A DNA stretch of 24,436 nt from Clostridium sp. AM49-4BH (lineage in GTDB: Bacteria > Bacillota > Clostridia > Lachnospirales > Lachnospiraceae): positions 1 to 24,436 of the forward strand of contig NZ_QUFB01000045.1 in assembly GCF_003478335.1 (NCBI RefSeq). The letters are read 5' to 3'. The position numbers and the translations under genes are program-made. Shown here piece after piece: positions 2,268 through 18,171 of this stretch (the first letter of the stretch is position 1; the number at the start of each line of letters is the position of its first letter). The notes under the pieces were generated by a model. It saw nothing but the letters and a program-made list of their open reading frames with translations, searched no databases and was not told the DNA's origin.

Positions 2268-2282
2268 TTGAGAGGTAATGAA

Positions 2283-5126
2283 ATGATGAAAGAAAAGCAG
2301 ACTTCCGGTATGGAATGGATGTACTCTATACTGAATGGTGCGAGTATTGCCATGCTGGTGGCAGTATTAGCGGCCATTGGGATCATGACTTGTATGGCTT
2401 TTGCCAGTCATGCAGATGCCAAAGCCAAGTCTTCCACTAACAATTCAATAGGAGAAGTTAGTTTTCGGGCGGGTGACATCAAGATTGATGCGACACTTGG
2501 CGGAACGGGAGGTGTTGTCGCACCAAACCGTTATGTCCCGATCAAGGCAACGTTGACCAACAAGGGAGATAATTTCAAAGGTTCTGTTAAAGTAATCTCG
2601 GGAGCAGTCAGTGGCACTTCGGTAGCATTTACAAAATCTGTATCAATTGCTGCAGGAGAGACAATTCAGATCAAAAGTTTTTTTACGTTGCCGGTGAGCG
2701 GTTCTACAGTACGAGTAGCGTTATATGACAAAGATGATGACATGATTTCATCTCAGACAGCATATTTGCAGATGGCATTAACAACGACTGACGAAAAGCA
2801 GATGGCGGTTTTGTCAGATGATATTAATAAGATAGGATATTTGCAGAGTGCAAATTTTGCTGTAGAAGAAATAAATGTTGCGGATGTTCCGGAAGACGTT
2901 CGATTACTGGAATCATTGGATGTATTAGTGATCAATAATGTAGATACGCAAAGCTTTTCGGCAAAACAGGTTACGGCGCTCCAACAATGGGTTTCCAATG
3001 GCGGACTTTTGGTGCTTGGCACCGGTGCTCAGGCAGAAAAAAGTTTGAAAGTTTTTTCTGGGAAATTGCTAAACGGTACGATTGGTGACGCGCGCTCGAT
3101 ACAGACAAATTTATCCTATGCGAAGGTGGATCAGGCAGAGAAACTGGCGCTGCTCAAAGAAGAACTGCGCAAAGAAAAATTAGATAAAGTAAAAACATTT
3201 TTGCGCGAACATTTGCCGCAAACTATGTATCGTGATTATGCACAAGACATTCAGGGCTTAGATTATTCGGATGATTGGGGAGGTACGATCTTTTCAAAAG
3301 GTTCGGAAATATACAAACAGCTGAAGAAAGAATATAGCGATGACGATTTGGAGAAGAAATTTCAAGTTACCATAAGCAAGAAAGAAGAAGAGAAGATACG
3401 GAAATCTCTTGTTTCTGATAAGTTAACCGTTGATATTACATCTTTAACGCTTGATAAAGCAGAGACATTGGTAGAACAGGATGGGGAGGCACTGGTTTCC
3501 AAAATATCTTATGGAAATGGTTCCGTGATCGTATCGGAATTTGACCTCGCACTTGATAACAAACAGTGGTCTAATTATGGTTCTGTTATCCGTAAGATCA
3601 TTAGCGACAATTGTACCACGACAGAAAATCATTTCTTTGACCAAAATGTCAATACATATTATTTGGATGATAGTTTGCAGGCTGGACTGAAATATAATGA
3701 GGTTGATGTGTTGCCCAATATTACCTTATACGCGATTCTGTTGATCGTGTACGTAGTATTGATCGGACCGGTTGGCTATACGATACTGCGTCGCAAGGAT
3801 AAGCGGCAGTTGCTGTGGGTGATCATACCTGTGTCCGCTGTGTTCTGTTCTGTATTGATCTATCTGATCGGAACCGGAACCAGAATCCAAAAGCCGTTTA
3901 TCAATTATTTATCACAGCTTGAAATTGGAGCAGAGGGGACGCATGATACGTTAAACACCGCCTTTTCGGTGACGAGCCCGAATAATAGAGATTATCAGAT
4001 CGTAGTAGAAGGCAGCAAAAATATTGACCCGTATTACAACAGTAATCAGGTCTATTATGATTCTAGTGCAGAGCAGGATAAAACGTATAGTTATGCAATC
4101 GAGTATAACTCAGATGAAACCGTATTGCACATGGAAAATCAGGCATCGTTCCAAAGCTCTAATCTCAAAAACAGTCAGACGGTAAAGCAGAAAGGACGTA
4201 TGGCGTTTACGAACATACAGATCGGAGAGTCTAAAGTATCCGGTGTGGTAACCAACAATACAGGGTATGATCTGGAAGACTGTATGATCGTTAATCATGG
4301 AGATATCATTGTATTAGGCAGCTTAAAAGCCGGTGAAAGTATATCTCTTGACCGTATCTCACCGAGCAAATACTTAAAATATGCGGATATCGGTTCTGAT
4401 TGGGAAGAGATGGTTACGCAGGCAGTGGGTGCAAATAACAATGGATATACAGAAGATGTGCAGTCTCAGCGAAGACAAAGCTTGCTGAAATATTACGGTC
4501 ATTTCTTCACTTCAGGAGAGACAGGAAGATCAACGACATATTTTTATGGTTTTACAAAAGATCAGCAAAAGACGTCGTTTACCAATATGTTTGATCTGAA
4601 TCTGTATGGAGAAATGGCAGTATCACAGGAAATTGACTTTAAGGATATGCTTGCAGAGGGGACGACAAATTATGGCGTATTGTCAGACTATATTGCAGAA
4701 TATAATGATTATCAGACCGATGGGAAATTGGTGCTGCAATCAAATGCTTCTGCGTCCTCTTCGAGCTATGCTCAGAGTATTAATGTTACTTATAACATCA
4801 AAAAGTTACTGGGTGAAGGGAAAAAATTAGGACTGCAGTATACGTATCTGGATAATTCGGAGATTACGATCTACAGCAATTATAGTGGTTCGGATATGAC
4901 GATCAATACGAATCTGTTTATGGGATCAGCATATATTTATAATCCGAAGAAGGACCGTTATGTTAAGTTCCTGACAGCCGGAAGTGAAACAACGTTAGAC
5001 AGTCTGGATCAATACGCTGACTCAGAGGGAAATGTCAAGATTCGATATGACGTAAAAGCGGATAGTGGTCTGGATGGAATGTATAACAATATTGCACTTC
5101 CGAAATTGCACATTATAGGCAGATAG
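2283..5126 (+). CDS. Large membrane-anchored surface protein with a GATase-like domain, function unknown
   Basis: The protein has about 950 residues and I do not recognise a characterised family. It has an N-terminal hydrophobic segment (about residues 16-41) with a possible signal peptidase site (AFASHA). The outer region follows: a beta-rich part (about 60-165), then an alpha/beta segment (about 168-270, including LDVLVINNVD and NGGLLVLGTGA) resembling class-I glutamine-amidotransferase-like folds but with no catalytic Cys visible. Two membrane helices lie near 477-500 and 509-530, joined by a basic loop LRRKDKRQ that should be cytoplasmic, so the C-terminal ~410 residues should also be outside. 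ATG 2283 (AGAGG at 2271-2275) was chosen. TTG 2268, directly after the kinase stop and 8 bases from AGGAGG (2254-2259), is a serious alternative that adds 5 residues. It lies 15 bases before the ABC ATPase gene. Such a partner could be an auxiliary extracytoplasmic component of the transporter, loosely like GldG; this is inference. Confidence 0.75.
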   Translation: MMKEKQTSGMEWMYSILNGASIAMLVAVLAAIGIMTCMAFASHADAKAKSSTNNSIGEVSFRAGDIKIDATLGGTGGVVAPNRYVPIKATLTNKGDNFKGSVKVISGAVSGTSVAFTKSVSIAAGETIQIKSFFTLPVSGSTVRVALYDKDDDMISSQTAYLQMALTTTDEKQMAVLSDDINKIGYLQSANFAVEEINVADVPEDVRLLESLDVLVINNVDTQSFSAKQVTALQQWVSNGGLLVLGTGAQAEKSLKVFSGKLLNGTIGDARSIQTNLSYAKVDQAEKLALLKEELRKEKLDKVKTFLREHLPQTMYRDYAQDIQGLDYSDDWGGTIFSKGSEIYKQLKKEYSDDDLEKKFQVTISKKEEEKIRKSLVSDKLTVDITSLTLDKAETLVEQDGEALVSKISYGNGSVIVSEFDLALDNKQWSNYGSVIRKIISDNCTTTENHFFDQNVNTYYLDDSLQAGLKYNEVDVLPNITLYAILLIVYVVLIGPVGYTILRRKDKRQLLWVIIPVSAVFCSVLIYLIGTGTRIQKPFINYLSQLEIGAEGTHDTLNTAFSVTSPNNRDYQIVVEGSKNIDPYYNSNQVYYDSSAEQDKTYSYAIEYNSDETVLHMENQASFQSSNLKNSQTVKQKGRMAFTNIQIGESKVSGVVTNNTGYDLEDCMIVNHGDIIVLGSLKAGESISLDRISPSKYLKYADIGSDWEEMVTQAVGANNNGYTEDVQSQRRQSLLKYYGHFFTSGETGRSTTYFYGFTKDQQKTSFTNMFDLNLYGEMAVSQEIDFKDMLAEGTTNYGVLSDYIAEYNDYQTDGKLVLQSNASASSSSYAQSINVTYNIKKLLGEGKKLGLQYTYLDNSEITIYSNYSGSDMTINTNLFMGSAYIYNPKKDRYVKFLTAGSETTLDSLDQYADSEGNVKIRYDVKADSGLDGMYNNIALPKLHIIGR

Positions 5127-5141
5127 AGAGGAGAGGGTGAC

Positions 5142-6077
5142 ATGGTAGAAATCAAAGGATTAAATAAATTCTATGGTAAATTTATTGCATTAAATAATTT
5201 GGATCTGCATATTGACAAAGGGGAGTTATTTGGATTTGTCGGACCAAATGGTGCAGGGAAAACGACGACCATGAAGATCTTATCAGGTCTGCTGAAAGCA
5301 TCCGGCGGGGAAGTTTACGTTGCAGGGATCGATGCGATCCGCCAAAGTACAGAACTCAAAGCGATGATTGGCTATATGCCGGATTTCTTTGGTGTATATG
5401 ACAATCTCAAGGCGATCGAATATATGGAATTCTATGCATCCATTTATGGCATGTATGGAAAACAGGCGACATCCTATTGCATGGAATTGATGGATCTCGT
5501 GCATCTATCGGATAAGGCAAATTTTTACGTGGACAGCTTATCGCGTGGCATGAAACAACGATTATGTCTTGCAAGAAGTTTGGTGCACAATCCGCAGTTG
5601 CTTATTTTGGATGAGCCGGCTTCCGGTTTGGACCCGCGAGCACGATTTGAGATGAAAGGAATACTCAAGAATCTACATGAAATTGATAAGACGATCATTA
5701 TTAGCTCACATATTTTGTCGGAGCTGGCAGAAATGTGTACCACGATCGGGATTATTGATCACGGACAGATGATGGTAAAAGGAACAGTCGATGAGATCAT
5801 GACCCGGTTAAATACCTCCAATCCACTGCAGATCCGTATTGTAGAAGGAATGGATCAGGCGGTGAAGATCCTCAAGGAGAATCCGACAGTTGTTAATTTG
5901 TCTGTGGATGCCAACATGCTGCTTGTTGGATTTAAGGGAAATGAAGAAGAGGAAGCAGCACTGCTGGCTTCGTTGATACAGAATGACGTGCGGGTATCGT
6001 CCTTTGTTCGGGATACAGGTAATTTGGAAGAAGTGTTTATGCGTGTCACTGGAAACAAGGAGGTGTTGTCGGCATGA
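5142..6077 (+). CDS. ABC transporter ATP-binding protein (ABC-2 exporter type)
   Basis: This is the cytoplasmic ATPase that powers the adjacent permease. The nucleotide-binding domain is complete: Walker A GPNGAGKTT (residues 34-42), a Q-loop-like region in IGYMPDFFGVYDNL (where Pro-Asp replaces the usual Gln stretch), signature LSRGMKQRL (133-141), Walker B LLILDEPASGLDP (153-165) and H-loop ISSHIL (His 190). The C-terminal ~90 residues form the accessory domain usual in the CcmA/NatA/GldA-like branch of exporters. The gene has GAGGAGAGGG upstream of ATG 5142 and its stop overlaps the permease start (ATGA at 6074-6077), so the two are translationally coupled. At 311 residues it has the normal length. 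The substrate cannot be read from the sequence; export of, or an envelope role linked to, the surface proteins of this operon is inferred. Confidence 0.93.
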   Translation: MVEIKGLNKFYGKFIALNNLDLHIDKGELFGFVGPNGAGKTTTMKILSGLLKASGGEVYVAGIDAIRQSTELKAMIGYMPDFFGVYDNLKAIEYMEFYASIYGMYGKQATSYCMELMDLVHLSDKANFYVDSLSRGMKQRLCLARSLVHNPQLLILDEPASGLDPRARFEMKGILKNLHEIDKTIIISSHILSELAEMCTTIGIIDHGQMMVKGTVDEIMTRLNTSNPLQIRIVEGMDQAVKILKENPTVVNLSVDANMLLVGFKGNEEEEAALLASLIQNDVRVSSFVRDTGNLEEVFMRVTGNKEVLSA

Positions 6078-7051
6078 GTAAATGGAAAAAGAAGTTATAT
6101 AATCCGGTATATATAAAAGAAACAAAGCTGCGTGTGCGCAACATTAAGTTTGCTCTGACAATCTTGTTTTACAATCTGATCTTGATCGGGATCGCAGTAT
6201 TTGGATTTGAAGTATTGTTTAATTCCGGTATGAACGATTATGTAAATTATGGAACGGCGATCGGTTTATATGTTGCACTGGTCGTGCTCGAATCTGTTAT
6301 GGTGGGATTTCTTGTACCATCTTTTACGGCTGGAAGCATTGCAGGAGAGCGTGAAAAGCAGACATTAGAAATTTTGCTTACGACAACTATGAAACCGTCA
6401 GAAATCGTTTGGGGAAAACTGATGGCATCCATCAGTATGGTGTTGTTATTGGTGGTTTCCAGTTTGCCGGTGATTTCCATTGTATTCACCATTGGTGGTC
6501 TTGCCTTAGTTGATCTGTTGCAGTTCGTTGTATTGGTATTCGTTGCGGCATTACTAATGGGAAGTATCGGCGTTTGGGCATCTACGGCAATTAAGAAAAC
6601 AGTTCCGGCAACTGTATTTACCTTTGCGGGGATTGTTGTACTGTGTGGTGTGACTGCTATTTTGGATGGAGTTATATACATTATTGGAAATATTATTGAA
6701 ATGAATGTTAATCATGTGTCCGGTCTGGCTGCCAGCAGCGCAACGCTGCATCTTGGACCGGCGTTATTGATCCTGTTGATCAATCCGGTTGTAACTTTAA
6801 TCGAAATGTTGATGTGTCAGTTTAGAGGACATGGACTCATTGTTACACTGGAACGGACATTTGGGGGCGGTATCCCGGATATTGTTGTAGATCATTGGTT
6901 TGTGATCAGCTTGATCTGTCAGTTGGTTTTGACGTTTTTCATTATGAAGCTTGCAGCAAAGTTATTGGATCCATTGCGTGTGAAGAAGAGCAGGAAGAAA
7001 GGAAAAAAGCATGAATCAGCAGTCGGGGATGGAAGCGGACAAAGAGATTGA
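6074..7051 (+). CDS. ABC-2 type transporter permease
   Basis: This is an integral membrane subunit of the ABC transporter encoded immediately upstream. About six hydrophobic segments can be seen: near residues 26-49, 59-84, 115-140, 145-170, 180-210 and 285-307, with another hydrophobic stretch near 230-255. The cytoplasmic motif GEREKQTLEILLTTTMKPSE (about 95-114), typical of ABC-2/NatB/GldF-like permeases, lies between the second and third segments. The C-terminus is strongly basic. The gene starts inside the ATPase stop codon, and its 3' end overlaps the next reading frame by 41 bases, so it is firmly embedded in the operon. At 325 residues with one permease gene and no other membrane subunit nearby, it probably forms a homodimer. 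The substrate is unknown. Confidence 0.9.
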   Translation: MSKWKKKLYNPVYIKETKLRVRNIKFALTILFYNLILIGIAVFGFEVLFNSGMNDYVNYGTAIGLYVALVVLESVMVGFLVPSFTAGSIAGEREKQTLEILLTTTMKPSEIVWGKLMASISMVLLLVVSSLPVISIVFTIGGLALVDLLQFVVLVFVAALLMGSIGVWASTAIKKTVPATVFTFAGIVVLCGVTAILDGVIYIIGNIIEMNVNHVSGLAASSATLHLGPALLILLINPVVTLIEMLMCQFRGHGLIVTLERTFGGGIPDIVVDHWFVISLICQLVLTFFIMKLAAKLLDPLRVKKSRKKGKKHESAVGDGSGQRD

Positions 7052-8591
7052 TCGTTTTCTGCAAAAAGTAAAAAAACGTGATATGCGTCAGAAATCGATT
7101 TTACTGTTGGGAATGTATGCACTGGTTGGAAGCATTCTTGGCTTTTTGGTACAGTGCGTGGCGATCTGGTATCCGTTTTATAATTGTGTGCCCACAAGTG
7201 CCGCAGTGTTTTTGGGATCGATCGCAGTCGGGGGCGTACATTTGTTTCTATGCCGCACAACGACAAGACGTGCAGCAAGATTAGCGGACAATATGGGAAT
7301 GCAGGAGCGTGTATCGACGAGCATCGAAGGCAGAGGAAGTACCGATGAACTTCGTATCCTGCAGAGAATAGATACGAGAGATCAGCTTCGGAATATCTCT
7401 TTGGAGAAGACAATGCCGTATTATATTCCATGGAAGAGATATGTTAGTCTGGGGGTCTTTTTGCTGATGGGATTCATCTGCTTGTTTATTCCGTCAGAGG
7501 CAAAGGATGTCGCGAAGCAGAAACATGAATTTGTCAAGAAAGTTGAGAAAGAGCAGGAGAAGATCGCGAAAGCAAAGAAGGTTCTTGATAAGGAAATGGC
7601 AAAGGGCAAAATAAGTAAAGAATCCCGCAAAAAGCTGGAGGAGTCCATAAAAACAGCCCAAAAAGATATGAAGCAGGCAAGATCTGTCGATGAAGTGACT
7701 GCTGCCCAAAAGCGTTTGGAGACAAAACTTCTTCGAGATGTTCCGGAGAACATTAGCAAAGAGGCCGCAGACAGTTTACGGCCTTTTGTGGACGGCAAAA
7801 ATTTACAGGCACTTTCGAAATATCAGAAGCAGCTTGCAGATCTGGCCGGTAAGCAGAAAGCCGTTGCGGCAGTGAGTGATGAATTAAAAGAATTGGGAGA
7901 GCAGTTAAGCGAGTCTAAGATGAAAGAGCTTATGCAGCAGCTCAATGAAAAGGCACAAAGTGGAGCGTTGACACAGCAAGACATTTCGGAAGTACTGCGA
8001 AATCTTGATAATGCCAGTGCTTCCTATACGCGGAGTGCCCTGTTACAGGATCAGACAGATTCCAATGCAGCGACACAGAATCAAAATACACAGGCACAGG
8101 GGAATACTTCGAATCAGAATGCTTCACAGAATGCCGATGGACAACAGGGAAACAGTTCCAAAAAACTGTCCGGTAATGGTGCTAAAGGTACTCAAAATGA
8201 TGGTCAAAGTGGATCAGGCAGTCAGGCAGGTTCCGGTAAAAATGCCGGCAGTGGGAATGGTGGCAGCCAAGGTAAAAACGGTAACAAAGTTGGAAGTGGA
8301 TGGAACACCGGTGGTAAAAACGGACTGGAACGAAAAGGTGCGTCGGACAGCGCAGAACAAGTCTGGGTTCCGGAGGATAATGGGAAAGATGGCAATTTGA
8401 CGGGCAGCAAGAATGGAGAATCCGGTAATCGCACAAAGTCTAACAACCTGCCTGCGAAACGCGGAACCAAACAGGAAATCGGGGCAGTATCCGGACAATA
8501 TAAACAAAAAGCATATTCCAAATTGAAGAAGCAGAAAATACCACAATCCAAGGAGGATATGGTTAAAAAGTATTTCAGCGATCTAGAGTAA
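7011..8591 (+). CDS. Membrane protein with Lys/Glu-rich coiled coil and Gly/Asn/Ser-rich tail, function unknown
   Basis: The protein has 526 residues. Two membrane helices lie near residues 28-54 and 62-80 and a third near 143-160, so the long remainder should be on one side of the membrane. Residues ~165-330 are highly charged and heptad-like (KVEKEQEKIAKAKKVLDKEM, and more), predicting coiled coils. Residues ~345-480 are low complexity, dominated by Gly, Asn, Ser, Gln and Lys. The last 30 residues (QYKQKAYSKLKKQKIPQSKE then MVKKYFSDLE) recall the conserved 'Y...A...L...IP...V..YF..L' ending I know from membrane proteins encoded beside MoxR genes. The start ATG 7011 has AGGAAGAAAGG upstream and overlaps the permease gene by 41 bases; ATG 7029 is an alternative. 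It directly precedes moxR, so a scaffold or partner for the MoxR/VWA machinery is a reasonable inference. Confidence 0.75.
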   Translation: MNQQSGMEADKEIDRFLQKVKKRDMRQKSILLLGMYALVGSILGFLVQCVAIWYPFYNCVPTSAAVFLGSIAVGGVHLFLCRTTTRRAARLADNMGMQERVSTSIEGRGSTDELRILQRIDTRDQLRNISLEKTMPYYIPWKRYVSLGVFLLMGFICLFIPSEAKDVAKQKHEFVKKVEKEQEKIAKAKKVLDKEMAKGKISKESRKKLEESIKTAQKDMKQARSVDEVTAAQKRLETKLLRDVPENISKEAADSLRPFVDGKNLQALSKYQKQLADLAGKQKAVAAVSDELKELGEQLSESKMKELMQQLNEKAQSGALTQQDISEVLRNLDNASASYTRSALLQDQTDSNAATQNQNTQAQGNTSNQNASQNADGQQGNSSKKLSGNGAKGTQNDGQSGSGSQAGSGKNAGSGNGGSQGKNGNKVGSGWNTGGKNGLERKGASDSAEQVWVPEDNGKDGNLTGSKNGESGNRTKSNNLPAKRGTKQEIGAVSGQYKQKAYSKLKKQKIPQSKEDMVKKYFSDLE

Positions 8592-8603
8592 GGAGGGGCA
8601 TTG

Positions 8604-9590
8604 ATGCAGGTAGAGGATATCAAAGAATATAGTACCAAGATCAAACGTACAGAGGAAGAAATTGCCAAGGGGATCATCGGTCAGAGAAGCGTGATCCATC
8701 ACATTTTGCTGGCAATATTGGCAGACGGCAATGTGTTATTAGAGGGTGTTCCGGGACTTGGTAAAACACAGTTGGTGAAGACGTTAGCAAAAGTTATGGA
8801 TCTTAATTTCTCGCGTATACAGTTTACGCCGGATCTAATGCCGACCGATATTACCGGTACCAATCTGATCATAAAAGAAGGAGATCGAAATCGGTTTCAA
8901 TTTGAAAAAGGACCTGTGTTTGCAAACTTGGTCTTAGCGGACGAGATCAACCGTGCAACACCGAAGACACAGTCCGCATTGTTAGAAGCGATGCAGGAAA
9001 AAACAGTAACAGTTGGAAATCATACGTATGAACTCCCAAAACCTTATATGGTTCTTGCAACGCAGAATCCGATTGAAAATGAAGGTACCTATCCGCTTCC
9101 GGAGGCACAGTTGGATCGTTTTTTATTTAAGTTATTGATCGAGTTCCCGTCTCTTGAGGAACTAAAGCAGATCATGCATCTGACGGTAGAAGGACAGCAG
9201 GAACAGATCCAGCAGGTGCTTACTGCAGGAGATCTGATGGAAATGCGTCAGGTGGTTCGTGATATACCGGTGTCGGCAGCAGTGGAGGAATATGCGCTGG
9301 CATTGGTGATCGGAACACATCCGGACAGTGAGTATGCGGTGAAAGAAGTTAAGCAATATGTATTAGAGGGAGCCAGTCCGCGTGCGGCACAGGCGATTCT
9401 GCTGACGGCTAAGGCAAGGGCGTTGTTAGATGGCCGTTACAATGTTTCTTTCGATGATATTGATGATGTGGCAAAGGCGGCACTGAGGCACCGGTTGGCA
9501 TTAAACTTTGATGCGCTGTCGGAAAATATAGTGGCAGACACGATCATTGCAGCATTGCAGGAGGCACTCAATGGAAGAAAAACTGTTTGA
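8604..9590 (+). CDS. MoxR-family AAA+ ATPase
   Basis: This is a cytoplasmic AAA+ ATPase, thought in this family to act as a chaperone or remodeller together with VWA-domain proteins. Walker A is GVPGLGKT (residues 48-55), Walker B is LVLADE (109-114) followed by INRATPKTQSALLEAMQE, sensor 1 lies in LATQNPIENEGTYPLPEAQL (Asn 155), with DRF at 171-173, and the C-terminal lid helix region carries SPRAAQAILLTAKARALLDG. At 328 residues it has the usual length. ATG 8604 was chosen because AGGAGG at 8591-8596 is 7 bases upstream; the TTG at 8601 is too close. The next gene starts 20 bases before this one ends. MoxR followed by DUF58 and VWA genes is the standard order in MoxR operons, which supports the identification strongly. 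Confidence 0.95.
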   Translation: MQVEDIKEYSTKIKRTEEEIAKGIIGQRSVIHHILLAILADGNVLLEGVPGLGKTQLVKTLAKVMDLNFSRIQFTPDLMPTDITGTNLIIKEGDRNRFQFEKGPVFANLVLADEINRATPKTQSALLEAMQEKTVTVGNHTYELPKPYMVLATQNPIENEGTYPLPEAQLDRFLFKLLIEFPSLEELKQIMHLTVEGQQEQIQQVLTAGDLMEMRQVVRDIPVSAAVEEYALALVIGTHPDSEYAVKEVKQYVLEGASPRAAQAILLTAKARALLDGRYNVSFDDIDDVAKAALRHRLALNFDALSENIVADTIIAALQEALNGRKTV

Positions 9591-10470
9591 TGGTGATTTT
9601 TTTCGAAGCTTGAAACGGATCAGCCTTTGGAGTGAAAATCGCTTAAATGGAGGCAGAGGCGGCAGCAGAAAATCTACTGCCAAAGGCAGCAGTGTGGAAT
9701 TTTCTGATTTTCGAGAGTATATGCCGGGAGACGATATACGTCGTATTGACTGGAACGCCTATGGAAGAAGTGAAAAATTATTTATTAAGCTTTTCATGCA
9801 GGAACAGGAAGGAATGTACACTGTCGTTTTAGACACAAGCCGATCCATGAAGGCAGACATGACAGAGAAATATAAACTTGCGGCGAGATTAGCAGGAATG
9901 TTTGGGCATCTGGCATTACAGTCACAAGACCGGGTCCGTCTGGTATCGGTTCAGGACGGTATGGCACAGATTGAAAAATCTCTGACCGGGATGCAGAGCA
10001 GAAACTTATTTTTGGATCAAGTGGCAAGACAGCGATTTGATGGGGTGACAGATCTGTGGCAGTCGGTACGCCATATTCCATTTCCGCGAAAAGGGACTGT
10101 TATTTTGCTGTCCGATTTTATGGACAGAGATACCAATGGCGGACATATGGAGACAATACATCAGACACTTCGTTATTTGAAATTTTGTAAACAGGACATA
10201 TTGATCCTGCAGATTTTAGATAAAGAAGAACGGAAACCACAGTTGGATGGAACGGTCAAACTGATCGATTGTGAGACAGAGCAGGATCTGACAGTAACCA
10301 TGACCTCGTGGCTGCGCAAGCAGTATGACAACAGACTTACTGCGTTTCAAAAAGGACTGGAGAGTGCGGCCAAAAAGTATCAGGCGCATTTTATGCAGGT
10401 GTATACGGACACGTCCTTAGAAAAGATAATTTATGACGGCATGAGAGCCGGCGTTTTTGAACAGGTATAA
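9571..10470 (+). CDS. DUF58 domain protein (VWA-like, MoxR partner)
   Basis: The protein has 299 residues and carries the DUF58 hallmark EFSDFREYMPGDDIRRIDWN (about 43-62), followed by AYGRSEKLFIKLFMQEQE. A VWA-like segment then has a metal-site motif DTSRSM (Asp 88, Ser 90, Ser 92), and later VILLSDFMDRD. No membrane segment is visible, so it should be cytoplasmic. The start ATG 9571 has AGGAGG at 9559-9564, 6 bases upstream; the upstream in-frame ATG at 9547 has no such site. It overlaps moxR by 20 bases. DUF58 proteins almost always accompany MoxR ATPases; the biochemical role is not established. Here it links the ATPase to the giant VWA protein 29 bases downstream. Confidence 0.93.
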   Translation: MEEKLFDGDFFRSLKRISLWSENRLNGGRGGSRKSTAKGSSVEFSDFREYMPGDDIRRIDWNAYGRSEKLFIKLFMQEQEGMYTVVLDTSRSMKADMTEKYKLAARLAGMFGHLALQSQDRVRLVSVQDGMAQIEKSLTGMQSRNLFLDQVARQRFDGVTDLWQSVRHIPFPRKGTVILLSDFMDRDTNGGHMETIHQTLRYLKFCKQDILILQILDKEERKPQLDGTVKLIDCETEQDLTVTMTSWLRKQYDNRLTAFQKGLESAAKKYQAHFMQVYTDTSLEKIIYDGMRAGVFEQV

Positions 10471-10499
10471 GATAACCCGGATATAGAGGAGGGGATACG

Positions 10500-13400
10500 A
10501 TGGGATTTGAACATTTATGGCCATTATTATTTCTTGCATTTGTGCCGGGTATTGTTTTGCTCTATTTACTGAAGCAGAAGGTACAGACCAAGAAAGTGCC
10601 GGCATTAAATTTGTGGCAGGAAGCTTTTGAATCTGTACAGGCATCGACTCCATGGGAGAAATTTCGTAATCATTTGTTAATGTATCTACAGATTGCTGTT
10701 TTGCTTTTGCTTGTTTTTGCCATGCTTATGCCGTACATCAAACGGAAGGGCGGCGAGACGGATCACGTTGTTTTGTGTATCGACACCAGTGGAAGCATGA
10801 ATGGCCGATATAAACAGGACAGTACCAAATTAGAAGAAGCGAAAAAGCAGGCACTCACCTACGTGGATCAGTTAGATCCGGGAACGAAAGTCACCGTAGT
10901 TACAGGGGCACAGACAGCGCAGCTTTTAGTGACAGATTCGACAGATACCGGCAGCATCAAGAAAACAATACGAGGTATTGGCGAAACAGACATTGCCGGG
11001 AGCTTAGAGGCCTCTTTACAGATTGTAACACCGCTTGTGAAACAGTGGCATAACTATAAAGTGATCGGGTTTACCGATAGTGATGCTGATGTAGGAAAGT
11101 TAAATGCGGATATTATTGCGTTGACCGATCAGGAAGGGACGACGAATGTCGGTTTAAGCTGGTTGTCCCATCAGACGGATGCAGAACATAAAATAACAAC
11201 ACAGGCCGGTATTATAAATTACGGAGAGAAAGATTTTAAGACAGATGTAGAACTGTATTTGGGCGACACGTTATTTGATGCGCAGACCGTATCGCTACAG
11301 GCGGGGCAGAGTAAGACGATCACCTTCCAGACGACAACGAACAGTCATTTCCGGAAACTGACAGCAAGCAAGGGGTATTTGAAAGCTCATATTGTAGCAG
11401 AGGACGGCAATTCACACGATAATACGGTCTATGAAATGATTGAAAGACAGAAGAAAAAGACGGTATTATTGGTATCCAAACAAAACAGTTTTATGGAACG
11501 GGCATTGTCTCTGGAAGATTCTATAACTGTAGAACAAACAACTCGGACAAAAAACATAAATCCGGACAAGGCATATGATTTCATCGTATACGATGGAGTT
11601 ATGCCGACGAAATGGTATCATAATGAGAATGTGATATTACTCGCACCATCGGATAAGGTGGTGATCGGAAAGCAGACTTTAGTTCGTAAAGTACAGACAT
11701 TCAAAAATGGATCAATTACGTTTCCGCAAAGTAATATTACACAGGATCTGGAGGCGTTTACGGTCAGTGCAGCCAAAGGATTTCGCTACGCACTTCCGTC
11801 GTGGGCATATTCTTTTGCCGGGGAAGGAAATCAGTGTGTTGGCTATCTTGGAAAGCTTCAAGATCGCGTTGTTGCGGTGCTTGGTTTCGATCTGCACAAT
11901 TCGGACCTTCCTCTGCAAATGGAATTTCCGGTGTTAGTACAGGGGATTTTGGCGCAGGCAGAGCAGACGATGTCTTTTGATGCAGCATCGTACGAGCCGG
12001 GAGATACGGTCACCCTGCAGCTTGGCAGTGGTAAGCGGGCATCTATCCGCTGGCAAGATCCGGCAGGACAGACAGTTGCTGATCAAAATGCACAGGGGCA
12101 GGCAGTATATACCGATACGAGGATGGCCGGTCTATACCATATGACGGTAACGGACACAAAGAGATCCACCAAATATTTTGCGGTGACATTTCCTAAGAAG
12201 GAATCTAAGTGCACGAATCGGGTACACATCACACAAAATGGCAGAAAACAGACTGTGACAACGGAAAATGTCAGCAAACTGTATGGCAAGAGGATGCTTG
12301 TAAGACCACTGATCCTTATTGTGTTGTTATTGCTGTGTGTGGAATGGATCGTATATAGACGTCGAACAAATTCAACGAATCGATTTAATAAAGTATCCAC
12401 AATCGCATGCCGTATTCTATTATTTGCCGGATTGACCGCCGCATTTATCGGAATATCTATGTCCCATATTTCGGACAGTACAACGACCGTTTTTGTGGTA
12501 GATGTGTCGCAGAGTTTTGCTGGAAAACGCAGTGAAATGGTGCAGCAGATAAGAGATGAACTTAAGAAGCTGCCGTCAAAAGATCGTGCCGGAGTAGTTG
12601 CTTTTGGAGGAGATGCGAATGTAGAACAGTTCGTGTCGGATACGGTGAAGTTTACAGAACTTAATTCGGTCCGGGTAGAAACGGAAACCAATATTGAAAA
12701 AGGACTTCAGACAGCAATGTCCCTTTTCTCGGACAGCGACGGAAAGCGCATTGTTTTACTAACAGACGGCAGACAAAATAGTGGCGATGTGCGTAAAATG
12801 AGCAGCAGCTTACAGGCAGGAAATGTGGAATTACAGGTGTTACAACAGGATTGTACTCCGGACAAGGAAGTTTGGTTATCGGACATGACCGTACCGGAAC
12901 AGATTACACCGGGAGAGCGTTTTACCGTAGAGATCGAAGTAACCAGTAATGTTGCGACTAATGCTGTTCTGCAATTATATAATGACACGAAGCTTCGCAG
13001 ACAGGAGCATGTCACTATACAAAAAGGAACCAATCATTTTACCTTTCAGGATCAGCGAAAACAGACGGGATTTACCAATTACCGGGCGGTGATCGTTCCG
13101 GAGAAAGATACGATACAGGCTAATAATGAGTATGTTGCTTATACGAAAGCGACCGAGCAAAAAAAGGTGCTGCTCATCGAAGGAAAAAGCGGAGAAAGTA
13201 AGCAATTTCAAAAGGTTTTGCAGGCAGCTGGCATCAATTATGACGTAGTGACGCCATCTTTCGCCCCGGATACGCTTAAAAAGATGCGGGAATATAGCTC
13301 TATTTTACTGGAAAATGTATATGCAGACAATCTAAAGAGCGGATTTATGGATCATATCACCACCTATGTCAAGGATTATGCCGGAGGGTTGATCGCGATC

Positions 13401-15068
13401 GGTGGAGATCAAAGTTTTGCGCTTGGTGCATATCGGGATACTGCCTTAGAAAAGGTGCTTCCGGTCAATATGGAGATCAAGGGCGACAAGGACTCGCCAA
13501 AACTTGCGATGACGTTAGTGATCGACCATTCCGGAAGTATGACGGATGCGTCCGACGGAGGCAAAAGTAAGTTAGAGTATGCGAAAGAAGCGGCCGCAGC
13601 TGCGGTCAATAACCTTCGCAGTACAGATATCGTTGGTATAGAATCATTTGACGATGGCTATCATTGGCAGGTTAAACCGATCCGGCTTACAGACCGTGAT
13701 GATGTCCTAAGCAAGATATATGGCATTAAAGATGGCGGCGGCACCAGTATTTATCCTGCATTGAAAGAGGCTTATGAGCAAATGACCAAGGTGAGCACAA
13801 ATGATGCGCAGATCAAACATATCGTTTTGCTGACTGATGGACAGGATACGTACCATGGGTATGACGATCTGCTTAAGGACATGAATGATAATAAGATAAC
13901 CTTATCGACAGTAGCGGTAGGGTCGGATGCCGACGTAAATATTCTGCGCACCTTAGCAGACAAAGGAAAGGGGCGCTTTTATCAAACGAATGCGGGCACC
14001 GGACTGAGCAGGATCTTTGCTCAGGAAGTATTTTTGTCGCAGGGAGAATATTTGGTCAACAAGACTTTTACACCGGTCATAACGGCGAACAGTGACATAT
14101 TAGAGCAGCTCAGAGAAGGTGGTTTCCCGGAGATGCTTGGATATATAGGAACGACATTGAAGTCGAATGCGACAGCAGTATTGATGGATGATAAAAAGGA
14201 AAGTCCGATCTTAGCAACGTGGCAGTATGGCTTGGGGACAACAGCGGCATTTACTACAGATGTAGTAAACGAGTGGACAGCTAATTATGCACAGTGGGAG
14301 GATTATCCGGCGTTTTGGCGCGGATTGATCAACCAGACGATAGGGGAACAGAATCATCAGGGCATTACCGTAACGGCACGGCAGGAGGGGAGTGCCGGTT
14401 TGATCGAGTATACCAATGCAAAAGTTAGTGGTGACGATCAAGTTACCGCAGTTTATGATGATGCGGATGGGAAAACGAATACTGTGACGTTACATTCTGT
14501 TTCCGGCAGCCGTTATGAGGGTGAGATTCCGCTTTCTGATGTAGGTGTCTACCAGATCAATGTCCGCCGCAGTAATGGAAAGAAAATACTAGATAACACC
14601 AATACGCAGTTGACGATGCAATATTCTGCCGAATATCGTTATGACACGACAGATACGGCATTGAATGAATTGATCGCGTCGGTATCAGGACGTTCGATCA
14701 ATTCATTAGAGGGCTGTTTTGATACGACACCACAGCGGAATGCCGCAAAGCGTGATCTGACGTTATATCTGCTGATGGCAATGACAATTCTTTGGTTCTT
14801 GGATATATGGAATCGGCGTATGCCGGATCTGCTGCCGACAGCATTGCGTAGATTAGGAAATCTTCGTTCGAAAGCAGTGGATACCATATTGTCTGCGGTT
14901 GACACGCCACAGGAGGAGTCTGCTGTCAAAACAAAGCAAAAGAAGATAACGAGACCAAAGAAACAAAAGAAACCAAAACAGCAGAAACAACAGGCGTCAC
15001 AGGCTATGCTTGATATTAGCAGCTTGAAGAAGGGGCTGCAGGATATGTATGATGACACACAAAAATAA
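10500..15068 (+). CDS. Giant BatA-like membrane protein with three VWA domains
   Basis: The protein has 1522 residues and looks like two proteins joined end to end. The N-terminal half is BatA-like: two membrane helices (about 5-24 and 58-78) with the typical PALNLW and PWEKFRNHLLMYLQ, then VWA domain 1 with metal site DTSGSM (from Asp 95), then beta-rich sequence to ~590. Two more membrane helices follow (about 600-620 and 635-657), then VWA domain 2 with the diverged site DVSQS (Asp 668), a beta domain, a class-I amidotransferase-like segment (about 888-997) without an obvious catalytic Cys, and VWA domain 3 with DHSGSM (Asp 1009) and VLLTDGQDTYHG. A last helix (about 1419-1440) leads to a Lys/Gln-rich tail of ~80 residues, probably cytoplasmic. 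GAGGAGGGG lies upstream of ATG 10500. It is the likely surface effector of the MoxR/DUF58 pair; the substrate is unknown. Confidence 0.88.
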   Translation: MGFEHLWPLLFLAFVPGIVLLYLLKQKVQTKKVPALNLWQEAFESVQASTPWEKFRNHLLMYLQIAVLLLLVFAMLMPYIKRKGGETDHVVLCIDTSGSMNGRYKQDSTKLEEAKKQALTYVDQLDPGTKVTVVTGAQTAQLLVTDSTDTGSIKKTIRGIGETDIAGSLEASLQIVTPLVKQWHNYKVIGFTDSDADVGKLNADIIALTDQEGTTNVGLSWLSHQTDAEHKITTQAGIINYGEKDFKTDVELYLGDTLFDAQTVSLQAGQSKTITFQTTTNSHFRKLTASKGYLKAHIVAEDGNSHDNTVYEMIERQKKKTVLLVSKQNSFMERALSLEDSITVEQTTRTKNINPDKAYDFIVYDGVMPTKWYHNENVILLAPSDKVVIGKQTLVRKVQTFKNGSITFPQSNITQDLEAFTVSAAKGFRYALPSWAYSFAGEGNQCVGYLGKLQDRVVAVLGFDLHNSDLPLQMEFPVLVQGILAQAEQTMSFDAASYEPGDTVTLQLGSGKRASIRWQDPAGQTVADQNAQGQAVYTDTRMAGLYHMTVTDTKRSTKYFAVTFPKKESKCTNRVHITQNGRKQTVTTENVSKLYGKRMLVRPLILIVLLLLCVEWIVYRRRTNSTNRFNKVSTIACRILLFAGLTAAFIGISMSHISDSTTTVFVVDVSQSFAGKRSEMVQQIRDELKKLPSKDRAGVVAFGGDANVEQFVSDTVKFTELNSVRVETETNIEKGLQTAMSLFSDSDGKRIVLLTDGRQNSGDVRKMSSSLQAGNVELQVLQQDCTPDKEVWLSDMTVPEQITPGERFTVEIEVTSNVATNAVLQLYNDTKLRRQEHVTIQKGTNHFTFQDQRKQTGFTNYRAVIVPEKDTIQANNEYVAYTKATEQKKVLLIEGKSGESKQFQKVLQAAGINYDVVTPSFAPDTLKKMREYSSILLENVYADNLKSGFMDHITTYVKDYAGGLIAIGGDQSFALGAYRDTALEKVLPVNMEIKGDKDSPKLAMTLVIDHSGSMTDASDGGKSKLEYAKEAAAAAVNNLRSTDIVGIESFDDGYHWQVKPIRLTDRDDVLSKIYGIKDGGGTSIYPALKEAYEQMTKVSTNDAQIKHIVLLTDGQDTYHGYDDLLKDMNDNKITLSTVAVGSDADVNILRTLADKGKGRFYQTNAGTGLSRIFAQEVFLSQGEYLVNKTFTPVITANSDILEQLREGGFPEMLGYIGTTLKSNATAVLMDDKKESPILATWQYGLGTTAAFTTDVVNEWTANYAQWEDYPAFWRGLINQTIGEQNHQGITVTARQEGSAGLIEYTNAKVSGDDQVTAVYDDADGKTNTVTLHSVSGSRYEGEIPLSDVGVYQINVRRSNGKKILDNTNTQLTMQYSAEYRYDTTDTALNELIASVSGRSINSLEGCFDTTPQRNAAKRDLTLYLLMAMTILWFLDIWNRRMPDLLPTALRRLGNLRSKAVDTILSAVDTPQEESAVKTKQKKITRPKKQKKPKQQKQQASQAMLDISSLKKGLQDMYDDTQK

Positions 15069-15098: not shown

Positions 15099-15134
15099 AA
15101 AAAGCATGAAAATCCAAATGTTATGGAGGGCAAA

Positions 15135-15923
15135 ATGATACCGATTAGTGAGAGAAAACGGATTGTCGTCAAGGTGGGAACCTCGACATTAACACATCGT
15201 ACCGGAAGATTAAACATACGGCGCGTGGAGCAGCTCGTCAAGACACTTGCCGATCTGCAAAATGCAGGGCACGAGGTGATCTTGGTTTCCAGCGGTGCGA
15301 TTGGTCTTGGTATGGGTAAGCTTGGCTTGATGGACCGACCTAAAGACACACCTGGGAAACAGGCTTGTGCCGCAGTAGGGCAATGTGAGCTAATGTATTT
15401 ATATGACAACTTGTTTTCTGAATACAGTATAACGGTGGCACAGCTATTGTTGACGAAATATATATTGTTAGAGGATCGCCGTAAAAATGTGGAAAATGCG
15501 TTGGAACGTTTGATCTCACAGGGAGTGATCCCGGTTGTCAATGAAAATGATACGGTTGCCATTGATGAGTTGGAGTTGGAAATGGGCGAGAATGATTCGT
15601 TGGCAGCTGTCGTGGCAACGATCGCCAATGCAGATCTTCTTATCATCATGTCAGACATAGATGGACTGTATGACAGTGACCCGCGTCAAAATCCGGATGC
15701 CAAGATGATCCCGGTTGTTCGAGAGATCAGTGAAGATATTCATGCGGTTGCAGGCGGCGCCGGAACAAAATTTGGCACTGGCGGCATGGCAACGAAGATT
15801 CATGCTGTGGAAATTGCATACGAATCCGATATTGATGTTGTGTTGATGAACGGGCAGCACCCTAAGAAATTGTACGAGCTTTTTGAAGACAAGCCGGTTG
15901 GCACTTTATTTCATAAAGGGTAA
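15135..15923 (+). CDS. proB: Glutamate 5-kinase
   Basis: This enzyme phosphorylates L-glutamate to L-glutamyl 5-phosphate, the first step of proline synthesis, in the cytoplasm. The amino-acid-kinase fold is complete: KVGTSTLTH (residues 13-21), SSGAIGLGMGKLG (52-64), VVNENDTVAIDEL (134-146), ENDSLAAVVAT (152-162), MSDIDGLYDSDPR (172-184) and GTGGMATK (214-221). At 262 residues it is the short form and lacks the C-terminal PUA domain found in longer homologues. ATG 15135 is preferred because GGAGGG at 15125-15130 precedes it; the ATG at 15123 overlaps that site. proA, its usual partner, is not in this window, so the gene stands alone with its own candidate promoter and a terminator. Confidence 0.95.
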   Translation: MIPISERKRIVVKVGTSTLTHRTGRLNIRRVEQLVKTLADLQNAGHEVILVSSGAIGLGMGKLGLMDRPKDTPGKQACAAVGQCELMYLYDNLFSEYSITVAQLLLTKYILLEDRRKNVENALERLISQGVIPVVNENDTVAIDELELEMGENDSLAAVVATIANADLLIIMSDIDGLYDSDPRQNPDAKMIPVVREISEDIHAVAGGAGTKFGTGGMATKIHAVEIAYESDIDVVLMNGQHPKKLYELFEDKPVGTLFHKG

Positions 15924-15977
15924 AGAGTCATAAGCCTATTTTTGCGACAGAGATAGATCATCATAAAAATTAAAATC

Positions 15978-16012
15978 AAAACCGCTGGAGCGTTATCCGT
16001 TCCAGCGGTTTT
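15978..16012. terminator. Bidirectional rho-independent terminator
   Basis: A 13-base stem (15980-15992 with 15998-16010, one G-T pair, loop TTATC) is extended by A-T pairs at each end. An A-run precedes it and a short T-run follows, so it can stop transcription of proB on the plus strand and of the convergent RelA/SpoT-like gene on the minus strand. On the minus strand the T-rich tract (TTTT, TTTT, TTTTT) is longer. Confidence 0.85.
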
Positions 16013-16033
16013 GCAGTTGTAAGAATAACAGTA

Positions 16034-17896
16034 TTAGTGACTAACATTGTCGTCCTTGATCACCTGTACGAGTTTATGGCGAAATGCTTTCTCTGAAATA
16101 TTATTATCGTGGAAAGCAAAACGGTTAAAGTCAAATTCCGCATGACATACATCATCTTTGGTGAATATATCCGGTGTACGCTTCTGCTCCTCCGGCCAAA
16201 AGATAACGATACAGCCATAAGGTTCCCTGATATTCGCATCCATCTTGTCTGCAAATGGTGTGGCAAGGCTTTGATCGATCATGACTACATGAGCGTATTG
16301 ACCTACAACTTTTGCAAGTCTCGTTCCATTGATCGTAAAGGTATTCATATCATAGCCATCCGTAAACTCACTGCCTTCCGCAGAAGACTGTGTATTTTGC
16401 TGGACGATGGCGATCAGTGGCAGGTGGCGATTTGGATCTTTTACCAGTTCGCAGTAAGAAGTAAAATCTTCCGGCGTAGTTATAAATTGTGCCTTTGTGC
16501 CAAGTCTGACAACGTCAACGAAACCTACCTTTGAAGAAAGATCATTCATGAAAGATGGTTTGCTAAAACTGATCTGGTGCGAAGCACCGTGTGGCATATC
16601 GCGAGATGTCATATGATAAAAATGAAGTTTGCCATCACTCAACATAGCAACAGAAGAATGAATATGCCATAATGTACCGATCTGTTTGCTGTCTATGTGA
16701 TTTAACTTCATGGAAAATGTCATATCTTCCGGTCGATAATCAATCTTTAATTGGTAGCCTGGCAGTTTGTTCTGATAAGAGCATAGTTCCTCAGGCATAT
16801 CTTCAAAAACAGGATTCAACTTAAAACGAGCCCATTTATAAATGATATTTGATGCGTTTGTAAATTCGGACGCAAGTGATCTGACTTCTTTATGCAATAA
16901 ATAGGTTTCCAGATGGAACAATACCGCAGAATCCAGTCTTGCAAAGTGAGAACGCGAACGCATTTTCTCATCACGGATAATAGGAAGTTTGTCACAGATG
17001 GCTGCGATCTCCTCATTATGGATCTTACTGTCATTCAAAAGCTTGACGATCAGGTTATAACTAGGCTGTGGCGCATCCAGTTTGAGCAGTTCGCGGATCA
17101 GATCCTTGCGTTTGCATTTGAAAAACTGTTTTGCAATCTCCTTGTCCCGGTCAAACAGTTCTAAAATTGCAGGATCAAGTTCGCTGTTATCATCCATATG
17201 GATTCGGAATTTGCTTTTTAGCATCAATTCCCAGTTGGCATTTTTGTAATGGTTATAAGAGAGTTGTTCAAATAACTGGACAAGTGACCAGTCACTTAGT
17301 TCCAAGTTGGCGAGGATGCAGTTCAAAATGCGAGACAATTCTTCGCTGCCACGCCAAAATTCATTGTCTGACAGGAGACTTTTGTAACGCATATCATGTT
17401 CAATCTCGTGCCATCCCTCAAAAAATACGGTACGAAATTGAATTTCAAAGGTTGTATCAATAGGCAGCGTCCACATGTCCTTTTTGTAGACTTTGAAATA
17501 TTCCGATGGGAAACGGAATACACCGTTGATCTTGGTTGCCTTAAATTCATTGGCAGTGGCATTGGTGCGAGACCAATGGTCTAACATCTGAAAGGTACTC
17601 TCCATAATATCACGGCAGATGCTAAGATCATCATAATAATACAAAACGACGCGTATGCCGATCAAATCCTGTAGTTTTTTGGGATTTTGTTCGGTCCCGT
17701 ATTGACGTCTGATCAGTTTGTTGGCAATAGAATCTGTCGATTTCACTCTGGAAAAAATACGAAAATATAAACCGCATGAACGAAATATTTCCTGTACGGC
17801 ATCCGTCAGATGTTCACAAAATTCTGTTAATTTATCAAAATCGATTTCTTGTTCGATCTGTTGTTGTAGTAACACTTTCTTTTCGTCATCCCTCAT
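16034..17896 (-). CDS. RelA/SpoT-domain protein with a long unrecognised C-terminal region
   Basis: The protein has 620 residues. The N-terminal ~200 show the nucleotidyltransferase domain of alarmone synthetases: SRVKSTDSIANKLIRR (about 49-64, carrying the ATP-binding Arg/Lys), LQDLIGIRVVLYY (about 75-87, with the metal-binding Asp 77) and FEIQFRTVFFEGWHEIEHDM (150-169, with catalytic-type Glu 151), then RYKS. The segment that normally reads GYRSYH/GYQSIH, which holds the guanine-stacking Tyr, is instead NGVFRFPSEYFKV, so substrate use may differ. Residues ~230-370 are mostly helical and charged. The last third (about 370-590) contains LPLIAIVQQ, GQYAHVVMID and PYGCIVIFWPEE, which I recognise only loosely. 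There is no membrane segment and no HD hydrolase domain. ATG 17896 has GGAGGA 6 bases upstream, and a promoter lies at 17921-17951. A small alarmone synthetase or a toxin-like pyrophosphotransferase with a regulatory or sensing C-terminus is inferred. Confidence 0.8.
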   Translation of the reverse strand: MRDDEKKVLLQQQIEQEIDFDKLTEFCEHLTDAVQEIFRSCGLYFRIFSRVKSTDSIANKLIRRQYGTEQNPKKLQDLIGIRVVLYYYDDLSICRDIMESTFQMLDHWSRTNATANEFKATKINGVFRFPSEYFKVYKKDMWTLPIDTTFEIQFRTVFFEGWHEIEHDMRYKSLLSDNEFWRGSEELSRILNCILANLELSDWSLVQLFEQLSYNHYKNANWELMLKSKFRIHMDDNSELDPAILELFDRDKEIAKQFFKCKRKDLIRELLKLDAPQPSYNLIVKLLNDSKIHNEEIAAICDKLPIIRDEKMRSRSHFARLDSAVLFHLETYLLHKEVRSLASEFTNASNIIYKWARFKLNPVFEDMPEELCSYQNKLPGYQLKIDYRPEDMTFSMKLNHIDSKQIGTLWHIHSSVAMLSDGKLHFYHMTSRDMPHGASHQISFSKPSFMNDLSSKVGFVDVVRLGTKAQFITTPEDFTSYCELVKDPNRHLPLIAIVQQNTQSSAEGSEFTDGYDMNTFTINGTRLAKVVGQYAHVVMIDQSLATPFADKMDANIREPYGCIVIFWPEEQKRTPDIFTKDDVCHAEFDFNRFAFHDNNISEKAFRHKLVQVIKDDNVSH

Positions 17897-17920
17897 TCAC
17901 ATTCCTCCAAAATACATTAT

Positions 17921-17951
17921 ATTATATCATACATTAATTAGCCTCTTTCAA
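17921..17951 (-). promoter_or_regulatory. Promoter of the RelA/SpoT-domain gene
   Basis: Read on the minus strand, TTGAAA (17951-17946) is followed by a 19-base spacer and a perfect TATAAT (17926-17921) preceded by TGA, an extended -10. The start codon lies 25 bases downstream of the -10. The spacer is longer than ideal, which the extended -10 may compensate. Confidence 0.6.
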
Positions 17952-17958
17952 ACTCGCA

Positions 17959-18019
17959 AATTCGCTGTTTCAGAGCTTATTCGCTTGTTTCACAAGCTTA
18001 TTTGCTCGTTAATGAGCCC
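17959..18019. repeat. Three tandem ~20-base units, each able to form a small hairpin
   Basis: Three related units lie head to tail: 17959-17978 (ATTCGCTGTTTCAGAGCTT core), 17979-17999 (ATTCGCTTGTTTCACAAGCTT-like) and 18000-18019 (ATTTGCTCGTTAATGAGC core). Each begins ATTYGC and contains a short self-complementary part, for example GCTTGT/ACAAGC in the second and GCTC/GAGC in the third. They continue into the hairpin block at 18026-18151. Confidence 0.7.
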
Positions 18020-18025
18020 AGTGTG

Positions 18026-18151
18026 TTCATTATATCACAAATTCGCAACGCAAGGGAGCTTGTTCACTTGCGCAGAATTTGTGAACGACAAAATCATAAA
18101 GCGCAATGCGCGGCAGATGCGTAGCATCTGGATTTTGGAGTCATTATATCA
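18026..18151. repeat. Hairpin-rich palindromic element bounded by an 11-base direct repeat
   Basis: The block contains an imperfect inverted repeat (TCACAAATTC...GCAAG at 18035-18054 with CTTGCGCAGAATTTGTGA at 18067-18084), then GCGC-AAT-GCGC (18101-18111) and CAGATGC-GTA-GCATCTG (18114-18130). TCATTATATCA occurs at both ends (18027-18037 and 18141-18151), like a target duplication. There is no coding potential. With the tandem units next to it, this accounts for most of the 414-base gene-free gap 17897-18310. It looks like a dispersed intergenic palindromic element, but only one copy is in the window. Confidence 0.65.
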
Positions 18152-18171
18152 TATTCCTGTATCCGCGTGTA

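Follow-up and report, generated by a model that had tools for sequence, protein, structure and literature searches.

A RelA/SpoT-Type Synthetase with a Remodeled G-Loop Joined to a START/Thioredoxin-Like Module: A Putative Effector-Sensor Fusion of Lachnospiraceae

Among RelA/SpoT homologs (RSHs), the described proteins closest in plan to the one reported here are CapRel-SJ46 and CapRel-Ebc, in which an N-terminal RelA/SpoT-type synthetase and a C-terminal regulatory half are joined in one protein. CapRel is reported to be closed by its C-terminus until a phage capsid protein binds, and its G-loop tyrosine is essential in that substitution abolishes phage protection (PMC9712102). The RelA nucleotidyltransferase domain has also been counted as a rarer nucleotide-signaling part of conflict systems (Kaur et al. 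2020, PMC7159879). Here, we describe a gene from contig NZ_QUFB01000045.1 of Clostridium sp. AM49-4BH (Lachnospiraceae), of which a stretch of 24,436 nt, hereafter the window, was analyzed. By analogy, its product is likely an RSH effector-sensor that works like CapRel without itself being CapRel. An earlier note made from the DNA letters had offered two possibilities, an alarmone enzyme acting on a changed substrate or an effector of toxSAS/CapRel type carrying its own sensor or antidote; these now stand merged rather than opposed, a merger favored by the comparative evidence because the G-loop is remodeled, the C-terminal module is shared with the candidate defense family HEC-07, and unfused relatives are paired with NACHT genes. 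In the literature searched, including the available portions of PMC7159879, we found no description of the clade, the altered loop, the fusion, or the NACHT pair. The gene and the parts of its product are as follows.

16034–17896, minus strand: putative RSH effector-sensor fusion gene, an open reading frame (ORF) of 620 aa with an ATG start and a PF04607 match
17252–17896, minus strand: RelA/SpoT-type synthetase domain with flanking helices, residues 1–215
17507–17548, minus strand: remodeled G-loop EFKATKINGVFRFP, residues 117–130, placed by alignments
16985–17233, minus strand: helical segment, residues 222–304, retained in unfused NACHT-partnered relatives too
16523–16933, minus strand: START/Bet v 1/PRELI-like (helix-grip) domain, residues 322–458, a weak fold match
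16037–16501, minus strand: thioredoxin-like fold without CxxC, residues 466–620

The synthetase domain and its G-loop

The Pfam model RelA_SpoT (PF04607) covers residues 49–173 with 54.4 bits against a cut-off of 27 (e value 1.8e-14), and a Pfam scan of the whole 620-aa protein gave nothing above cut-off outside this model; the lack of HD, TGS, ACT, and zinc-finger domains separates it from the long RSHs (RelA, SpoT, and Rel). The earlier description of a RelA/SpoT-type N-terminus on an unannotated C-terminus that is neither HD, TGS, nor ACT therefore holds, and every motif named in it is present in the translation. The nearest solved structures by sequence are RelP/RelQ-type alarmone synthetases (e value about 1e-4). 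The protein differs from the small alarmone synthetases (SASs) RelQ/YjbM and RelP/YwaC in its lack of GYxSxH and in its additional 400-residue C-terminus, and it reaches only 31.3 bits against a cut-off of 320 with the NCBIfam YjbM model. At an e value of 1e-3 or less it matches 1,292 proteins, including ones that have only the RelA_SpoT part in common with it. In a 21-row alignment of fusions, NACHT-partnered relatives, neighboring RSHs, and four host SASs, residues R50, K52, S56, K60, D77, G80, R82, E151, Q153, W162, and K172 are invariant, and R50, K52, K60, D77, R82, E151, and Q153 remain so in a 64-row alignment as well. We take these to include the ATP-site Arg/Lys, the metal Asp, and the catalytic Glu, going by the roles of these residues in the RelA_SpoT family.

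The absence of GYxSxH, the G-loop segment that the earlier note had reported missing, proved to be a property of the whole family, as none of the 126 fused-family and 120 unfused-family proteins retrieved contains it. In its place, an F-x5-N pattern is present in 236 of these 246 relatives (9 fused and 1 unfused being without it), a count made among the best-matching proteins listed, that is, the best 120 each of 1,292, 369, and 1,984 matching proteins; at least three of the 126 fused-family proteins (P0121, P0123, and P0126) have no listed RelA_SpoT domain and some lack the N-terminal part. Across the 64 rows, F118, K122, N124, G125, and P130 are invariant. Because GYxSxH has been exchanged for another conserved loop, the acceptor would seem to have changed rather than the site decayed, and conservation of the replacement is as expected for such a change. 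All 13 of the other RSHs fetched from nine same or related genomes (13 of 21 listed places; five genomes belong to the genus of L001, the nearest relative of the window) keep GYxSxH, and the fusion protein is therefore a second, different RSH.

To place the lost residues we prefer an alignment bridged by intermediate sequences (L125 with FEYAGVN, and L128–L130 with FGYxSxH), which runs without gaps and sets F-GYxSxH against F118-K-A120-T-K122-I-N124. In this alignment the tyrosine falls on Ala120 (Pro or Val elsewhere), the serine is replaced by Lys/Arg, and the histidine falls on Asn124, so that Ala120 rather than Phe118 would occupy the position of the stacking tyrosine. The PADLOC candidate PDC-S33 was considered as a name for the family and rejected: its match amounts to 22.4 bits over positions 52–168 of 349 only, the matches in general are weak, and L128–L130, which keep GYxSxH, look like a neighboring family.

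The C-terminal module and the unfused relatives

Searched by sequence against Pfam and PDB, the C-terminus gave no significant match. The predicted structure consists of the synthetase domain, a domain weakly like START/Bet v 1, and a thioredoxin-like domain. A redox-active thioredoxin was considered for the last of these and rejected, as there is no CxxC past residue 440 of the window protein and just one such motif among the 64 rows. The C-terminal module shares homology with the N-terminal region of HEC-07, a name and candidate status that are PADLOC labels (4 profiles of 526–557 positions). A HEC-07 profile matches residues 395–550 (e value 2.9e-8) up to profile position 237, leaving the coiled coil and C-terminal domain (about positions 330–553) uncovered. 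Conversely, a profile of our C-terminus finds a 552-aa protein (L146) in the Lachnospiraceae genome G316 (e value 1.9e-33) that is a full-length HEC-07 (PADLOC e value 3e-76), with the module first, then what by eye is a likely coiled coil, and then another domain. An hhalign comparison of the C-terminus with two HEC-07-like proteins gave weaker support (probability 75%, e value 2.4e-5), and a structure prediction of HEC-07-like proteins made from two sequences reached a pLDDT of 40 and was not used. HEC-07 thus carries at its N-terminus, ahead of a coiled coil and a further domain, the module that the window protein carries at its C-terminus, and a module with differing partner domains fits a sensor. 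We found no mention of HEC-07 or PDC-S33 in the literature searched, and HEC terms occur 0 times in PMC8565338. Two Bacillota loci (L103 and L104) encode HEC-07-like proteins of 501–503 aa that by eye have a coiled coil and a HicA-like C-terminal end, and there the gene adjoins one resembling a WYL-type regulator.

The N-terminal half also occurs by itself. A tblastn search of plasmids returned the fused gene in two Lachnospira eligens records, together with six Enterobacterales records and four weaker matches (27–30% identity). The six Enterobacterales RSHs match within residues 27–304 only, at 34–38% identity, and those read are 288–300 aa long. In L112–L115 and L145 the unfused RSH gene directly follows a larger gene, with a 1-base overlap or 1–2 bases between them. 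The larger partner matches NA-iREase2 above cut-off in L113–L115 and also matches NACHT (above cut-off in two of the three), and in L112 (Yersinia hibernica) the start of the partner gene has been lost beside IS1. When the NACHT protein of L114 was used as the tblastn query against plasmids, six records were found and all six encode the unfused RSH; in the Y. massiliensis plasmid the NACHT partner apparently spans the start of the record.

Eight viral contigs in IMG/VR, likely prophages, encode the unfused RSH as well. In all seven with an identity of at least 39% (L118–L124, about four lineages because L119–L122 share one RSH protein) the first 1–4 bases of the RSH gene are also the last of the gene upstream. 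These upstream genes encode 703–712 aa (two ORFs in L121), and NA-iREase2 was present in all five scanned in Pfam, L120 resembling L119 and the partner of L121 being split; the eighth contig (L125, 25% identity) is by eye without such a neighbor. Over plasmid and IMG/VR partners together, eight of nine scanned have NA-iREase2 above cut-off. Since Pfam describes NA-iREase2 as an inactive endonuclease, there is room for the RSH as the effector of the pair. The partnered RSHs are homologous to residues 27–304 (31–38% identity) and have the same altered loop; their systems consist of two genes and a NACHT switch, whereas the window has one gene without NACHT. In Lachnospiraceae, reading by eye shows the short form L081 likewise placed after an ORF that has a P-loop motif, and the short forms L082 and L083 without a partner in the vicinity of ribosomal-protein genes. 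The unfused form matches 1,984 proteins at an e value of 1e-3 or less, not all of which need belong to the clade, and the Klebsiella RSH gene, used as a query against E. coli genomes, found no match. The pair of NA-iREase2/NACHT gene and altered-loop RSH (L118–L124; L112–L116 and L145) is a candidate defense system of its own.

A maximum-likelihood tree of the 64 rows separates the SASs from the fusions and the NACHT-partnered forms (support 100/100). A single clade (24 rows, 100/99), lying beside or inside the fusions, holds the NACHT-partnered, gammaproteobacterial, and solo forms, and the window groups with L001 (99/90). Midpoint rooting was used and the branch to the SASs is long, so the tree does not fix the order of the architectures.

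Taken together, a mechanism can be proposed in which residues 1–304 would act as effector and residues 322–620 as sensor in one chain. The C-terminal half would sense a trigger, presumably one that signals phage, and free the N-terminal enzyme, which would be active and would move pyrophosphate from ATP onto an acceptor other than GDP or GTP, for which the 3′ adenosine of tRNA and adenine nucleotides are the best candidates; firing would stop growth. The START/thioredoxin-like module would in this way do the job of NACHT, that is, sensing and gating. That the fusion protein is such a self-contained alarm, whose sensor frees the enzyme for pyrophosphate transfer to a probably non-guanine acceptor, is a reading of the sequences that we hold with moderate confidence. 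Also counted in favor of this reading is a nonsynonymous substitution rate (dN) that in all seven pairs of sequences compared is 1.2–3.3 times higher in the C-terminal half than in residues 1–304. More tentatively, RSHs that exchanged the guanine-stacking loop for the invariant F-x5-N loop may make up an unrecognized class, a shared immune effector with a new acceptor, placed under interchangeable sensors and fixed as a core gene in one gut genus; the sensors would be NACHT on plasmids and prophages and, with the same tentativeness, the HEC-07-type START/thioredoxin-like module in Lachnospiraceae.

Distribution and gene surroundings

Relatives were found in 135 stretches of species-level genome contigs, of which 80 loci were kept; informative titles are those of Lachnospiraceae or other Clostridia. 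A profile of the family matches 31 of 397 genomes of the bacterial family, in 27 of which the match spans the profile and in 4 covers the N-terminal part only. Occurrence in the genus of Blautia glucerasea is limited to 3 of 64 genomes. A metallo-beta-lactamase gene closely precedes the RSH gene in two of these carriers, and the third has the RSH gene about 3 kb further on; the metallo-beta-lactamase gene has matches in 30 of the 64 genomes, and among the 20 loci read, which are short, no clean empty site was visible.

Next to the gene itself, the following elements were recognized.

17904–17908, minus strand: ribosome-binding site GGAGG, read from the sequence, 7 nt ahead of the ATG
17921–17926, minus strand: possible −10 element TATAAT within TGATATAAT, read from the sequence and omitted by the consensus scan
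15977–16013, no strand assigned: strong stem-loop (−25.3 kcal/mol and z −6.93 by RNA folding), likely a bidirectional terminator that the gene and the convergent AA_kinase gene have in common

The AA_kinase (proB-like) gene at 15123–15923 is convergent with the fusion gene, as the earlier note had stated, and the stem-loop lies between both. The same note's promoter and repeat element fared less well: TGATATAAT lies upstream of the gene, but the consensus scan has no minus-strand site directly ahead, and the region from about 17940 to 18160 yields just short imperfect repeats, which is weak evidence of a repeat element. Three copies of TGATATAATGA or near variants lie upstream of the fusion gene (window 17921–18150), with short imperfect repeats and palindromes between them, and may be promoters or a repeat element. 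The upstream neighbor is a divergent YcxB gene, so no NACHT gene lies directly upstream. A long gene run at 2268–15068 presumably encodes, from its look, an ABC transporter, a MoxR-type ATPase, a DUF58-like protein, and two VWA-like proteins.

Neighbors in other loci were taken from the table of a simple ORF caller, in which L072 gave no row, and one representative per cluster (120–900 aa, within three ORFs of the gene, 53 loci) was scanned with PADLOC. Among the 146 representatives, 16 profiles were matched at an e value of 1e-10 or less, mostly by single proteins. Single neighbors match RT_UG29 (e value 2.7e-51), PDC-S03 (1.6e-50), LmuA (3.3e-21), and MzaA (3.9e-19), and these might be real defense genes. 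An adenosine deaminase gene of one cluster is the upstream neighbor in L051, L052, and L060, and in a 627-kb Lachnospira eligens record filed as a plasmid the gene add ends 3 bp before a full-length homolog (L117, 6888–9776); this neighbor may point to an adenine nucleotide as what the enzyme uses or makes. A further locus (L084, 9270–11369) encodes, after an apparent two-component pair, a 700-aa protein with an altered-loop RSH domain and a different C-terminus.

Weighing the readings

Several observations weigh against an immune effector-sensor. The gene is present in all 28 genomes of the genus of L001, which includes Butyribacter intestini (some copies being cut by contig ends), and this counts against defense because fixed core genes are unusual for it. 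Its site is mostly shared, YcxB being no more than 2 kb away in 22 of the 29 close loci (the window, L001–L026, L031, and L046); of the exceptions, L010, L013, and L018 break off too close to the gene to show its neighbor, and L014, L015, L017, and L019 have other upstream neighbors. Of seven pairs, three have a finite dS, and their dN/dS ratios (nonsynonymous to synonymous substitution rates) come to about 0.06, 0.08, and 0.03; one of the three has a dS of 2.2, near saturation, and synonymous sites are saturated in the four pairs with the window. These values indicate purifying selection, and with ratios of about 0.03–0.08 and 1,292 matching proteins the ORF is no chance ORF. The 20 neighbors scanned in Pfam, from Lachnospiraceae, are mostly housekeeping or surface genes, and at most 18 of the 146 representatives match PADLOC, a count that stands without a background rate and in which several are by name general enzymes (primase-, adenosine deaminase-, and metallo-beta-lactamase-like). 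The earlier note had set housekeeping contexts of all homologs, together with ordinary ppGpp synthesis, against its own proposal; such contexts are found for most scanned neighbors and departed from by the minority of PADLOC matches, and the proposal is to that extent weakened but not refuted.

These observations are what the main rival builds on. It holds that the protein is a housekeeping, ligand-regulated alarmone-type synthetase of Lachnospiraceae in which, under stress, metabolite binding to the helix-grip/thioredoxin-like half adjusts the synthesis of (p)ppGpp or a similar nucleotide, defense being no part of its function. Fixation in the genus at a mostly shared site, housekeeping neighbors, purifying selection, and the add gene ending 3 bp before the Lachnospira eligens homolog would all suit such a metabolite-regulated stress enzyme, and helix-grip folds often bind small ligands. 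We nevertheless consider it less likely, given that other RSHs, with GYxSxH intact, are already encoded in the genus, that the C-terminal module is common to the candidate defense family HEC-07, that on plasmids and viral contigs the unfused sisters have NACHT genes as partners, and that the gene is sporadic in Blautia (3/64).

The proposed mechanism and the link to NACHT face objections of their own. The domain arrangement in the predicted structure is unreliable (pTM 0.53), so an autoinhibited state is not seen in it. Unbridged profile alignments place F118 (including with 5f2v and 5ded) or T121 (2be3) at the G-loop tyrosine, F118 in two and T121 in one of three structure-based profile alignments, and GTP could remain the acceptor if F118 stacks. 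NACHT is above cut-off in two, below it in four, and unlisted in three of the nine partners scanned, the NACHT evidence concerns relatives at 31–38% identity rather than the window gene, and the plasmid neighborhoods covered are those of the stronger matches, five further records with partial RSH matches (42–64% coverage) and the four weaker ones standing outside the count. No fused relative was found in IMG/VR, where scans began from few short peptide patterns, nor in phage records, which gave three short RelA matches covering 26–30% of the query. The complete lack of GYxSxH among the 246 relatives could also mean that acceptor binding was lost with the G-loop and that the protein, catalytically dead, serves as a regulator for which bound ATP or a bound alarmone is the signal, much as CapRel loses phage protection when its G-loop tyrosine is substituted (PMC9712102). 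This seems improbable to us: the metal Asp, catalytic Glu, and ATP-site Arg/Lys are invariant in 64 and 21 rows, which would be needless in a dead enzyme, and the altered loop is invariant in the 64 rows, which is what a new acceptor site would show. The least probable reading, however close the plan of the two proteins, is a true CapRel, a fused toxin-antitoxin with the C-terminus as antitoxin and capsid sensor. CapRel has the essential G-loop tyrosine and, at its C-terminus, a pseudo-zinc-finger antitoxin domain with YXXY, whereas the window protein has Ala120, F118, or T121 at that position in every alignment made and a C-terminus whose fold matches are START- and thioredoxin-like; CapRel matches residues 2–204 only and is outscored by RelQ/RelP-type SASs. 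Membership in toxSAS/CapRel is accordingly not supported.

Returning to the RSH effector-sensor, since the gene is fixed in the genus of the nearest relatives of the window, it may have been turned there, by domestication, into a permanent switch for stress or against phage. If the wider reading is true, RSH immune effectors would extend beyond toxSAS/CapRel to a broad clade, an alarmone-type enzyme would be tied to NLR-like NACHT switches, and a sensor role would be suggested for the HEC-07 module. It would also pose the direct question of what an RSH synthetase without the guanine-stacking tyrosine modifies, and fixation in the genus of Butyribacter intestini would represent a defense device turned into a core cell function.

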